Below are positions 1 through 4,606 of a DNA stretch of 64,000 bases, in pieces. The DNA is from Malaciobacter molluscorum LMG 25693 (GTDB lineage Bacteria; Campylobacterota; Campylobacteria; Campylobacterales; Arcobacteraceae), in assembly GCF_003544935.1 (NCBI RefSeq), contig NZ_CP032098.1:1364001-1428000 (forward strand), written 5' to 3'. Below the pieces are notes generated by a model that was not told the origin of the DNA, did no database searches, and saw only the letters and a list, made by a program, of their open reading frames with translations. Position numbers and translations under genes: made by a program. Every line of letters starts with the position of its first letter. Within the stretch, counting starts at the first letter, position 1.

Positions 1-2311
1 ATTCAATTTGTACTGGATGAATTAAAGATTTTCCATCAAAACCTAAATAATAAGCATCTTTAGTAGAATCTTCACAAGCAAACTCATCTAATACATCATA
101 ATAAGGTCCATCTATTACAAATTTACCAAATGCTTTAGCTGCAAGTGCAATTTGAGATAGATAATTAAACATTGCTTTTGAACCTTTTTTCATATCTATT
201 TGAAGTCTATTTGCTAATTTATTTGACCCTGCAACTACAACTTCAACTCTAGAACTTGCACTACAAATTTCTTGTATATTTAATACAGAAATAGGAGTTT
301 CTATCATGATCATTAAAGTTAATTCAGGATTAACTTCATCTATTAATTTAACAGCTTCTAAAACATCCTCTTTTGAGTCAATTTTTGAAAATAGTATTCC
401 ATCAAGTTCTATCTCTTTTGCAAGCTCTAAATCTTTTTTGATATCTTCTGTTCCAAGGTTATTAACTCTAATAACTCTTTCAGAATCTCCAAAATTTGCA
501 CCTTGCTCTTTATATACACTTCTTAGAACTTCTCTTCCTACTTCTCTTTGACCTTGTAAAATAGCTTCGAAATCAAAAATAACTGTATCTGCTAAAACTG
601 TTCTAGCTTTTTCTACATTTTGTTTATTGTAAGCTGGTACAAATAACATAGATCTTCTTGCTCTATACTCAACTATGTGCTCACCTGCTGCTCTTGCTTC
701 TTCCATATCATGAATATTTTTAATTAATTGTTTTCTTAATACTTTTCCATTTTTTGTTCTTGGATAATCTTTCATACTAAAGATTTTTTTAGGAGCTTTA
801 TATTTAGCAAGATTTGCTTGTGCAAATGCTAATATCTCTTCTTCGTCCTCTTTTGATAAATCTTTATGACCAACAACGGCAATAGAAACAAGTGTTTTAT
901 CTTTTTCTAACTCAAATCCAAATGCTACACAATCAGCAACTTTTGGATGAGTTTTTACAACTCTTTCTACTTCATGTGGAGATACTCTAAATCCAAAAGT
1001 ATTTATAATATCATCTTTTCTACCAATGAACCAAATGTATCCATCTTTATCTTTTTTTGCATAATCTCCTGTGAAAAAATATCCATCATGTTTAGCTTTT
1101 GAAGTCTCATCTTCTAATTGCCAATATTCTAAAAATAATCCAGGATCATCAACTCCAATACTAATCATACCTTCTTCTTCAACACCAACTTCTTCTAACG
1201 TTTCAGGATTAAGAAGTTTTACAATATGACCTGGTTGAACAAATCCTGCACTTCCTGGTCTAATTGGATTATTTACTGAATGAGAAATATAATAAGAACA
1301 TTCACTCATTCCAATAGCTTCAAAAATGTCTTGTTTAAATCTTGTTCTCCATGCTTCAATCATCTCTGTTGAAAGATGTTCTCCAGCACTCATACAATAT
1401 CTTAAACTTGGACAATCATCAATTGTAAAATCAGTTTTTTGAATAATTTGTCTATAAATAGTTGGAACCCCAATAAATATTGTACATTCATGTTTTTTAA
1501 TTAAATTAATCCATGTTGAAGCATCATTTGCCCCTTCATATGCAATTACTGTATGACCATTGTATAAAGGATCCATTAATGCTGAACCTAATACATATGT
1601 CCAATTAAATTTACCAGAGTGCATAATTCTGTCATTTTTCTTGAAATTGAACCAATATTCTGTTGCTGGAGTTCTTCCAACTAATGATCTATGTGAATGT
1701 AATACACCTTTTGGATAACCAGTTGTTCCTGATGTATAAACTAAATATGCAGGTTCCCCTGATTTAGCATTGTAATGGTTTGGCGTTTTATCTGTATTTT
1801 TTAATATCTCATCTAAAGCATATACATTTATACCTTTAGGCTTTTTATAATCTTCAACACTATTTGTTCCAGCAACAATAATAGTTTTTAAATTATCAAC
1901 ATTTTCTAAATAAGGAACTAAGTTCTCATACATAGATGCTGACATAACTATCGCACTTGCTTGTGAATCTTCTGCAAGGTATTTAACTTCTGAACCACTT
2001 AAAAGTGTTGAAGTAGGAACGGCAATAATCCCAGCTTTTATTGCACCAAAAAATGAAATAGGATAAGCAAGAGAGTTTTTTAAACATACTAATACTCTAT
2101 CTCTTGGTTCTAATCCAATCTCTGTAAGAAAGTTACATATTTGGTCTGATTTTTCAGATAATTGTTTGTATGTAATTTCATCTGTACCTAATTTGTCATC
2201 TTCAATTATCATTGCAGTATTGTTTTCGTTTTCTGTTCCTAAATGAGCAGAAGTACAAGCAACACCGATATTTAAAAATTCAGGTACATCAATTTTTATT
2301 GTTGAACTCAT
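1..2311 (-). CDS. Acyl-CoA ligase fused to a CitE-like (HpcH/HpaI) lyase, 3' end outside the window
   Basis: The frame stays open from the ATG at 2311 to the window edge (about 770 residues, no stop). Residues about 1-530 are an AMP-forming acyl-CoA synthetase: the P-loop YTSGTTGYPKG lies near residue 195, a GMSECSYY motif follows in the adenylation core, then FTGDYAKKDKDGYIWFIGR and the C-terminal lysine motif RTKNGKVLRKQ near 520. It resembles benzoate/acetate-type ligases. From about residue 550 a CitE/malyl-CoA lyase-like TIM barrel begins (RSMLFVPAYNKQNVEKAR, IETPISVL, GFDGKSLIHPVQIE). A good Shine-Dalgarno (AAGGAG) precedes the ATG, and the CitE paralogue ends 14 bases upstream, so they form an operon. 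I infer that an organic acid is activated to its CoA ester and cleaved; the substrate is unknown. The D of the usual GxxDL motif appears replaced (AGSNKLANRL). Confidence 0.85.
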   Translation of the reverse strand, partial: MSSTIKIDVPEFLNIGVACTSAHLGTENENNTAMIIEDDKLGTDEITYKQLSEKSDQICNFLTEIGLEPRDRVLVCLKNSLAYPISFFGAIKAGIIAVPTSTLLSGSEVKYLAEDSQASAIVMSASMYENLVPYLENVDNLKTIIVAGTNSVEDYKKPKGINVYALDEILKNTDKTPNHYNAKSGEPAYLVYTSGTTGYPKGVLHSHRSLVGRTPATEYWFNFKKNDRIMHSGKFNWTYVLGSALMDPLYNGHTVIAYEGANDASTWINLIKKHECTIFIGVPTIYRQIIQKTDFTIDDCPSLRYCMSAGEHLSTEMIEAWRTRFKQDIFEAIGMSECSYYISHSVNNPIRPGSAGFVQPGHIVKLLNPETLEEVGVEEEGMISIGVDDPGLFLEYWQLEDETSKAKHDGYFFTGDYAKKDKDGYIWFIGRKDDIINTFGFRVSPHEVERVVKTHPKVADCVAFGFELEKDKTLVSIAVVGHKDLSKEDEEEILAFAQANLAKYKAPKKIFSMKDYPRTKNGKVLRKQLIKNIHDMEEARAAGEHIVEYRARRSMLFVPAYNKQNVEKARTVLADTVIFDFEAILQGQREVGREVLRSVYKEQGANFGDSERVIRVNNLGTEDIKKDLELAKEIELDGILFSKIDSKEDVLEAVKLIDEVNPELTLMIMIETPISVLNIQEICSASSRVEVVVAGSNKLANRLQIDMKKGSKAMFNYLSQIALAAKAFGKFVIDGPYYDVLDEFACEDSTKDAYYLGFDGKSLIHPVQIE

Positions 2312-2325
2312 AATATAACTCCTTA

Positions 2326-3459
2326 CTATATTTGACCATATGGCCAGTTTTCTCTAAATGTGTGAATTGGCATTTTATTTAATACTGTTAATGCAAAATC
2401 TTGATGTTCTGTGCTTAAACTTCTTAAAGCATACGCTCTTAAGATATTTTGTAAAGCTTTTCCAAACATTGGTGGATCTAACATCTCACCTTCAAATCTT
2501 ATTGCACCACTTAATAGTGCATCAGCTTCAATTGCTGCTTTTAATACTGCTACATCGTGCTCTATCTCTTTTGGACTTGGAGTAAAAGCAACTTTACACA
2601 CATTTATATGATTTGGTGTAATTACTTGTTTTCCTGTAAGACCCATTGCACACTCTTTTTTTGCATGAGAATATACATGTCTTGATGCATCATCTCCGTG
2701 TAAATCAAGCCATCTTCTTATATCTTTTTTTTCTAAACATGAATCAGGTAAAGAGTTTGGTGTAAGCATAACTTCAACTCCACCAATTACACCTGCACCT
2801 TTAATTCTTGCTTCCATTGTAAGAATATTAAAAAATGTTTTTAACTCATCAATCCAACCTTCCGGTGTGATTTTATATGCCATCGCTTTTGAAAAGTCAT
2901 GGATTCCAAATACTACGTGTTTAACTGTTGAGTAATCCATTAAATCAGAAGCAATTTGCAGTGATTTCGGATGCTCAATAATTGGCTGAATAGTTAAGTT
3001 TGCATTAATTGAAACTAACCAAGAAGATAAGTCTCTAATCTCCGCATCTCCATAAACTTCCCCAGCTTTTGCTAAAACAATTACATCAATATATTTATGA
3101 ATTTGTTTTAACATTTTTAAATCTTCTTCATACTCTTCTGTTCTAAATGGATTTATTCTAACTGCTATTTGAAAATTTCTCTCTGGAAATTTTGGTAACT
3201 CTTGAATTAGAAGTTCTCTACTCATAGCTTTTTGTCTACATCCATCTTCTAAATCAAACAGTACTGTATGTGCTTTTGTTTTATAAGCGTGTTTTTGTAA
3301 TCTTAATTTTGCTTGCTCCATTGTTTCATAAGTTCCATCTAATGGATTAAACTTAATTGGAGGATAGTATATTTGAATACCTGGCCAGTAACCACCAAGC
3401 AATGGTGTTAAATCATCATTAGCCGTTAACTTTGATAAATTTAATTGTGATGATGTCAT
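2326..3459 (-). CDS. CitE-like HpcH/HpaI aldolase/lyase family protein
   Basis: This 377-residue protein belongs to the HpcH/HpaI aldolase/citrate-lyase beta family, in a long-form subgroup. Visible family features are AHTVLFDLEDGCRQKAM (the acidic D-E strand), AVRINPF (substrate-phosphate arginine region), a TIQPIIEHPKSL segment in place of the ETP motif, VFGIHDFSKA (the GxxD metal loop) and TGKQVITPNHINV (equivalent of the GK..IHPxQ motif). Members cleave or form CoA esters or beta-hydroxy acids with Mg2+. It is the first gene of an operon with the ligase-CitE fusion and is divergent from an IclR regulator, which probably controls it. Two CitE-type barrels in one operon suggests either sequential C-C cleavages or one lyase plus one thioesterase-like member. 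Exact substrate not predictable. Confidence 0.8.
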   Translation of the reverse strand: MTSSQLNLSKLTANDDLTPLLGGYWPGIQIYYPPIKFNPLDGTYETMEQAKLRLQKHAYKTKAHTVLFDLEDGCRQKAMSRELLIQELPKFPERNFQIAVRINPFRTEEYEEDLKMLKQIHKYIDVIVLAKAGEVYGDAEIRDLSSWLVSINANLTIQPIIEHPKSLQIASDLMDYSTVKHVVFGIHDFSKAMAYKITPEGWIDELKTFFNILTMEARIKGAGVIGGVEVMLTPNSLPDSCLEKKDIRRWLDLHGDDASRHVYSHAKKECAMGLTGKQVITPNHINVCKVAFTPSPKEIEHDVAVLKAAIEADALLSGAIRFEGEMLDPPMFGKALQNILRAYALRSLSTEHQDFALTVLNKMPIHTFRENWPYGQI

Positions 3460-3874: not shown

Positions 3875-4606
3875 GTGCAAAAACAAAATAAATCACTATC
3901 AAAAGGCTTATGTGTTTTAAAAGAGATAATGTCTAGCAATAAACCTTTAACTGCTAATATTTTATGCCAAAAATTGCAAATTGATAAAAGTACAATGTCT
4001 AGACTTATTACTACTTTGATGACAGAAGAGTTTATAGAGTATAAAGATAATACAAAAGAGATAGTTTTAAGTGATATTGTTAGAAAAATAATACATAAAG
4101 ATGATAGACAAAAAATTGTTGAAAAGACAAAAGCACTATTAGATGAAATATTTTATTTAACTGATGAGTGTGCTTATATTGGAATTTTGGATAATAATTC
4201 TGTTTTATATTTAAATCAAGTTGATAAATCAAAAAGAGTTTTAAAAACTATTGATTCAGTTGGTTTACATGCACCTTTACATACAAATGCTTTTGGTAAA
4301 GTAATTTTAGCTTTTTGTAAAGAAGTAAATATTGAAAATGTAGAGTTGAAAAAATTTACTACAAATACAATTACAAGTATAACAAAACTAAAAAAAGAGA
4401 TAGAAGCAGTTTCTCAAAAAGGTTATGCAATAGGAATAGAAGAGCATGAGTTTGGACTTTGTTCTGTTGCTGTTCCATACTTTAATAAAAGAGGGCAGTT
4501 TGTAGGACCTGTTGGAATTTCTGGTTTATCAGTAAGAATGGATGAAGTAAAATTACATGAACTTGGACAAAAAATATTTAAATTAGTTAATTCAAGTTTT
4601 GTATAA
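3875..4606 (+). CDS. IclR-family transcriptional regulator
   Basis: A 243-residue protein with IclR architecture. Residues about 10-75 form the N-terminal winged helix-turn-helix (ANILCQKLQIDKSTMSRL is the recognition helix region). Residues about 90-240 are the effector-binding domain, with the family segment GLHAPLHTNAFGKVILAF, then GYAIGIEEHEFGLCSVAVP and a terminal GISGLS stretch. Translation starts at GTG behind AGAAGAG. IclR proteins bind small organic acids and usually regulate an adjacent catabolic operon, here the divergent CitE and ligase-CitE genes. Length is normal for the family. The effector is unknown. Its last codons lie inside a bidirectional terminator shared with pepD. Confidence 0.9.
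   Translation: MQKQNKSLSKGLCVLKEIMSSNKPLTANILCQKLQIDKSTMSRLITTLMTEEFIEYKDNTKEIVLSDIVRKIIHKDDRQKIVEKTKALLDEIFYLTDECAYIGILDNNSVLYLNQVDKSKRVLKTIDSVGLHAPLHTNAFGKVILAFCKEVNIENVELKKFTTNTITSITKLKKEIEAVSQKGYAIGIEEHEFGLCSVAVPYFNKRGQFVGPVGISGLSVRMDEVKLHELGQKIFKLVNSSFV

Follow-up and report, generated by a model that had tools for sequence, protein, structure and literature searches.

In the malyl-CoA lyase of R. sphaeroides the Mg2+ ion is held by Glu141 and Asp168, the pair Glu44-Asp45 holds the metal waters, and the site further comprises Arg76 and a lid residue, Asp299, from the neighbouring subunit (PMC3832036). Absolute conservation in the CitE-like superfamily is reported for the metal ligands and for the Glu-Asp pair, and the characterised enzymes, the thioesterase included, require Mg2+ or Mn2+. 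They are trimers or hexamers with lids closing over the neighbouring subunit, and for the malyl-CoA thioesterase group a change of the lid Asp to Glu has been reported (PMC3832036).

A gene cluster like the one described here, with the same fusion of an acyl-CoA ligase and a CitE-like domain, is present in Arcobacter butzleri RM4018 (AB1917–AB1921). The fusion is hence not new: it was described in 2007 in the genome paper of this organism as AB1918, with a CaiC domain at residues 50–550 and a CitE domain at residues 550–825 (PMC2147049). The passages of that paper dealing with the cluster propose a route over mesaconyl-CoA, beta-methylmalyl-CoA and citramalate and consider each of the three CitE-type proteins as a potential malyl-CoA lyase. 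Relative to these passages, the missing metal ligand, the split gammaproteobacterial form and the co-occurrence with prp genes reported below are additional. A literature search on the A. butzleri locus tags returned nothing. The itaconate degradation system RipA/RipB/RipC shares with the cluster the logic of CoA activation, a MaoC hydratase and a CitE-type lyase.

The fusion gene and its cluster

The window is the whole stretch of 64,000 nucleotides analysed here, C1:1364001-1428000 of the complete single-contig genome of Malaciobacter molluscorum LMG 25693 (Arcobacteraceae; 2,800,582 bases, 2.80 Mb). At its edge, positions 2-2311 of the minus strand form a single open frame of 770 residues with zero stops, and the full gene was read in 18 kb of genome around the window edge, where the protein reaches its stop after 839 residues (genome 1363792-1366311). 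The features are listed below; those without coordinates lie outside the window.

1..2311, minus strand: fusion gene, AMP-forming acyl-CoA ligase and CitE-like domain, 839 residues; residues 1-770 inside the window, the last 69 and the stop at genome C1:1363792-1364000
707..2311, minus strand: ligase part, residues 1-535, with YTSGTTGYPKG at residue 192 and the putative catalytic Lys523 (nt 743-745)
662..706, minus strand: linker, residues about 536-550; limits approximate, the region being modelled with low confidence in a close orthologue
2..661, minus strand: CitE-like (HpcH_HpaI) domain, residues 551-770 of 551-839; Arg615, metal Glu671 and lid Asp812 (outside the window) kept, second metal ligand lost
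218..220, minus strand: Lys698 (codon AAA), aligned with the Mg2+ ligand Asp168 of the R. sphaeroides malyl-CoA lyase
2326..3459, minus strand: L377, CitE-like lyase of 377 residues; all catalytic residues present, invariant across 30 aligned orthologues
3875..4606, plus strand: divergent IclR-family regulator; best NCBIfam model BhcR, 128 bits (cut-off 350)
Minus strand: MaoC-type hydratase, 359 residues, TTG start, overlapping the end of the fusion gene
Minus strand: L327, CitE-like, 327 residues
Minus strand: class I fumarase, 496 residues
Minus strand: DUF5718 protein, 288 residues
Minus strand: FumC, 465 residues

The minus-strand genes are transcribed in the order L377, fusion, MaoC-type protein, L327, class I fumarase, DUF5718 protein and FumC; the C-terminus of the fusion and the genes downstream of it were beyond the reach of the earlier note, which was made from the window. 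Pfam finds AMP-binding at residues 30-397 of the fusion protein, AMP-binding_C at 447-523 and HpcH_HpaI at 553-766, the latter a strong match of 107 bits. The motifs of the ligase half are intact, with KNGKVLR containing Lys523 besides the motif at residue 192, and are kept across 34 aligned fusions. By its ATP motif YTSGTTGxPKG and its C-terminal catalytic Lys, this half is predicted to be an AMP-forming acyl-CoA ligase.

The earlier note had proposed that a ligase and a CitE-type lyase are joined in one polypeptide next to a second CitE homologue and a divergent IclR regulator, and all these elements are indeed found at the locus. An intervening stop or frameshift was looked for in the fusion gene and none was found. 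Of 60 related genomes, 25 have an intact fusion gene; a second collection, of named genomes, contains 46 such loci, from Arcobacteraceae, Sulfurospirillum and a small number of gammaproteobacterial MAGs. As the frame is open in all these cases and both halves are under purifying selection (dN/dS over 12 close pairs of 0.03–0.13 for the fused CitE part and 0.04–0.12 for the ligase part, with mostly lower values for L377), the fusion is not a sequencing artefact, and a frameshift or an assembly join is ruled out. When the fusion was used as query against plasmids, only ligase-type matches and no such fusion were obtained. The predicted structure of a fusion orthologue from Malaciobacter halophilus (L033; not the window protein) has a mean pLDDT of 74 and a pTM of 0.47; its Foldseek and VIA match lists say nothing on the CitE half because the ligase half filled them.

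L377 keeps the residues E71, D72, R101, E162, D188 and D328 in all of the 30 aligned rows. Its predicted structure, in this case that of the window protein (mean pLDDT 73.5, pTM 0.73), finds malyl-CoA and citramalyl-CoA lyases as best solved matches and places it in the same family as the malyl-CoA/beta-methylmalyl-CoA lyases (4l9y, 5ugr) and human CLYBL (5vxc), although its sequence is extended and distinct. For L327 the closest solved relatives are 3qqw from Ralstonia eutropha and 3r4i from Burkholderia xenovorans (E 2e-136 and 2e-97), whose function is not assigned. Homologues of L327 also occur outside this gene set, on Cupriavidus and Azoarcus plasmids, and on a Sphingobium plasmid one follows a gene annotated as mch. 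In Cupriavidus pinatubonensis a homologue is found directly after a pyruvate carboxylase gene (L029:6291-10987).

The MaoC-type protein matches PF19315 (mesaconyl-CoA hydratase) over its whole length (13-325) with 62 bits, which is above the Pfam cut-off, and scores 61 bits against the NCBIfam mesaconyl-CoA hydratase equivalog (cut-off 560). With its N-terminal half it reaches a higher score of 119 bits against the RipB itaconyl-CoA hydratase model (cut-off 340), and for this reason itaconyl-CoA chemistry is a possible alternative. L377 gives 52 bits against RipC_Ccl (cut-off 375), and the NCBIfam scores of L377, the MaoC-type protein and L327 are generally far under the curated cut-offs. BhcR is the regulator of the beta-hydroxyaspartate cycle; since the IclR-family protein stays well below the cut-off of this model, the link is only a hint.

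Many Arcobacteraceae likewise encode the DUF5718 protein within the cluster or close to it (for example L003:9032-9898). Class I fumarase of the single-chain type is encoded twice in the window genome, with equal family scores (G000:C1:1360652-1361473 and 2586685-2587506), and one of the two genes is inside the operon.

Catalytic residues of the fused CitE-like domain

The fused domain belongs by sequence to the same family as the lyases 4l9y, 5ugr and 5vxc (5ugr, 5e-26), but the Asp that ligates Mg2+ and the canonical Glu-Asp pair are missing from it. The CitE parts were aligned with 4l9y, 5vxc and 6aq4; these are distant proteins and were compared at the conserved motifs. At the motif of the metal Asp, G-x-x-D/K-L, no gaps adjoin in the alignment. 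The Asp corresponding to Asp168 is missing in all 46 fusions and is replaced by Lys (28), Asn (7), Thr (7), Arg (2), Ser (1) or Gln (1). The site of the Glu-Asp pair is one residue shorter and has a single Glu in 44 of the 46, with a placement that is ambiguous by one residue as to which member of the pair is lost. The other positions are better preserved: the metal Glu (Glu141 site) is Glu in 38 fusions, among them the window protein, and otherwise Asp (6), Ala (1) or Gln (1); the catalytic Arg (Arg76 site) is Arg in 41, again including the window protein, and Lys in five; and the lid Asp (Asp299 site) is present in 46 of 46. A nearby Asp in the motif LQID was considered as a stand-in metal ligand and rejected as an obvious replacement because it is Asn or Ser in other fusions.

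The earlier note had further suggested a single-protein pathway in which the CoA ester is channelled from the ligase to the fused lyase. The HpcH_HpaI match and the retention of Arg, metal Glu and lid Asp in the window protein would agree with an active fused lyase fed by its own ligase domain. This is nevertheless very improbable, as the second metal ligand is gone in every fusion and the Glu-Asp pair is non-canonical, while Arg and metal Glu are themselves exchanged in some fusions and the LQID residue offers no obvious replacement. In addition, the hydratase is encoded by a separate gene of the set, and the orthologues of both L377 and L327, aligned with the same three structures, keep the full catalytic set. 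Thus the single-protein version of the pathway is not supported, whereas its general idea, namely CoA activation and CitE-type cleavage of a C4 or C5 dicarboxylic acid, fits the operon.

The fused domain is therefore best read as a CitE-fold protein that is probably no longer a canonical metal-dependent lyase and that has its own gene in other lineages. L377 and L327 appear to be the better lyase candidates because all their catalytic residues are kept. A single missing metal ligand need not mean that all catalysis is gone, as most fusions retain Arg and metal Glu and all of them retain the lid Asp. Given that the lid Asp is kept and that CitE-like lids close over the neighbouring subunit, the domain may serve to dock onto a working lyase; it might also sense CoA esters or have an altered catalysis.

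Fused and split forms of the gene set

L377, the ligase, the CitE-like part, the MaoC-type hydratase and L327 form a five-part set, which in Arcobacteraceae is often accompanied by class I fumarase. In Kangiellaceae and relatives (25 of 25 loci), the ligase and the CitE protein each have a gene of their own; the two genes lie side by side, the order being L377, ligase, CitE, MaoC, with L327 divergent. Among 369 sampled gammaproteobacterial genomes L377 was found in five besides the Kangiella reference, and each of these five has the five parts with a separate CitE gene; in one of them (L116, genome G223) the parts are split over two divergent groups. The single polypeptide of the earlier note is thus valid for Arcobacteraceae, Sulfurospirillum and some gammaproteobacterial MAGs and not for Kangiellaceae and other gammaproteobacteria, a distribution that is drawn from few genomes outside Campylobacterota.

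In a tree of the ligase part all 47 fused rows lie on one side of a branch with 100/100 support, and the nearest named relatives of the window protein are those of Arcobacter sp. CECT 8985 and Malaciobacter halophilus. As this tree has no outgroup, the choice between a fusion and a fission event was inferred from the CitE residues instead. The separate Kangiellaceae-type copies keep the metal Asp in 24 of 25 cases, their Glu-Asp site reads Gln-Glu (with ambiguous placement in the alignment), and their lid position is Glu in 25 of 25. The free copies of the five further gammaproteobacteria differ again, with Asn instead of the metal Asp in L112, L113 and L115 and Gly instead of Arg in L114, so that across L112-L115 Asn, Gln and Gly appear at catalytic positions; the canonical Glu-Asp pair is missing from the free gammaproteobacterial copies too. 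Taken together, the residue losses in fused and free copies make the catalytic site of the CitE partner irregular in all sets examined, with the strongest deviation in the fused form.

The window proteins share 37–42% identity with their Kangiellaceae counterparts in the CitE part, 56–61% in the ligase, 66–70% in L377 and 64–72% in L327. The CitE part changes faster than the other parts, yet it is not decaying: a decaying domain was considered as the main reading and rejected on the strong purifying selection. The same selection could speak for a domain with another enzymatic activity, such as that of a CoA-ester hydrolase, metal-independent or altered, which would remove or recycle the ligase product, and the lid Glu of the Kangiellaceae-type copies is the exchange described for the thioesterase group. 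We consider such a hydrolase unlikely, as the fused copies have Asp and not Glu in the lid, the active-site residues vary by lineage (L112-L115) unlike a conserved new active site, and the characterised CitE-like enzymes including the thioesterase depend on a metal ion (PMC3832036).

Some further arrangements were seen in these genomes. The L327 gene at L113:10781-11989 contains one in-frame TAG. At L112:12960-16376 and L113:2165-5521 the MaoC gene is followed by a frame of about 1,120–1,140 residues with a C-terminal acetate/propionate kinase domain. In a member of the Myxococcota (L117:6604-9400) an L377 protein with 53% identity is encoded directly after a class I fumarase, and the other parts are not nearby. 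Arcobacteraceae lacking the set mostly have a shorter open frame in place of the class I fumarase.

Genome context and the fate of the products

In the window genome prpB occurs together with prpC, acnD and prpF, so that all four genes are present. Within the Arcobacteraceae prpB is found in 14 of 14 set-bearing and in one of eight set-lacking genomes (Fisher 4.7e-5, a value that ignores shared ancestry), and it is present in six of the eight set-bearing gammaproteobacteria searched and missing from the other two. In Kangiella a class I fumarase gene is followed by prpB, prpC, acnD and prpF. In L116 the genes for CitE, MaoC, L327 and prpB (identified by HMM) run in one direction, and a cut-off frame after prpB looks by eye like a citrate or methylcitrate synthase. 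Isocitrate lyase was found in none of the 31 genomes searched and malate synthase neither in the window genome nor in 26 others, whereas control genomes were positive in both searches. Propionyl-CoA as a product fits because of the prpB co-occurrence, the prp gene clusters and the lack of isocitrate lyase and malate synthase. The ethylmalonyl-CoA pathway was considered as well and set aside, crotonyl-CoA carboxylase/reductase being present in only one of the 31 genomes. The search for methylaspartate ammonia-lyase, a source of mesaconate, gave no match in the 31 genomes and was equally silent in control genomes, and is thus uninformative.

These observations bear on a catabolic reading in which external itaconate or mesaconate would be degraded in the manner of RipABC to acetyl-CoA and pyruvate via a citramalyl-CoA lyase. 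The weak matches of the MaoC-type protein to RipB and of L377 to RipC point in this direction, and class I fumarases are known mesaconases (PMC4682846). The set differs from RipABC by an AMP-forming ligase in place of the CoA transferase, a longer MaoC protein, two lyases plus the pseudo-lyase, and the methylcitrate link. This route is improbable in our view: neither a CoA transferase nor a transporter is found among the cluster proteins of the window genome, the scores are far under the RipB and RipC cut-offs, and the prp link favours propionyl-CoA over acetyl-CoA and pyruvate alone.

Proposed pathway and role of the pseudo-lyase

We suggest, with a probability of roughly 55%, that an intact ligase and a conserved pseudo-lyase act in a five-part set that converts a C5 acid to propionyl-CoA and glyoxylate and in which a separate lyase does the cutting. 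We infer the following substrates and order of steps. The ligase would activate a branched C5 dicarboxylate, our best guess being mesaconate, to its CoA ester. The MaoC-type protein, probably acting between ligase and lyase, would hydrate the mesaconyl-type ester to beta-methylmalyl-CoA, which L327 would cut to propionyl-CoA and glyoxylate, and propionyl-CoA would enter the methylcitrate cycle. L377 would form or cut a second CoA ester, which may be citramalyl-CoA or else malyl-CoA. For the fused domain the probable role is either to serve as a dock between the ligase and the lyases or to bind CoA esters and control the ligase.

As judged from the gene content, the flow could possibly be catabolic, with mesaconate as input, or that of a citramalate-type cycle, with acetyl-CoA as input. 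In the cycle, which is compatible with the proposal above and differs in direction and purpose, L377 would form citramalate from acetyl-CoA and pyruvate, class I fumarase would convert it to mesaconate and the ligase to mesaconyl-CoA; MaoC would then yield beta-methylmalyl-CoA, L327 would release propionyl-CoA and glyoxylate, and the methylcitrate cycle would regenerate pyruvate. This reaction list agrees with the cycle described for Rhodospirillum rubrum (PMC8307300), and such a cycle is named by the A. butzleri authors in the passages cited above. The lack of isocitrate lyase and malate synthase, the co-occurrence of prpB with the set and the class I fumarase within the cluster of many Arcobacteraceae are likewise in line with it. 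On the other hand, isocitrate lyase is also missing from set-lacking relatives, the release of free citramalate is left unexplained, and the same A. butzleri account reports that the organism did not grow on acetate (PMC2147049). We therefore regard the cycle as doubtful, if somewhat more plausible than the hydrolase and the RipABC-like route. The further-reaching combination, in which a disarmed CitE-fold subunit docks or gates the ligase in the five-part set and a working citramalate-type cycle takes the place of the glyoxylate shunt in both Arcobacteraceae and Kangiellaceae, is speculative and on balance unlikely.

Working enzymes with an attached pseudoenzyme domain lend themselves to the study of regulation and docking, and here the role of the disarmed domain is directly testable because free-standing and fused versions occur in different lineages. 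Should the set operate as a citramalate-type cycle, its genes would be gene-level candidates for a route of acetyl-CoA assimilation in organisms without isocitrate lyase, a route that has been described for Rhodospirillum rubrum but is disputed.
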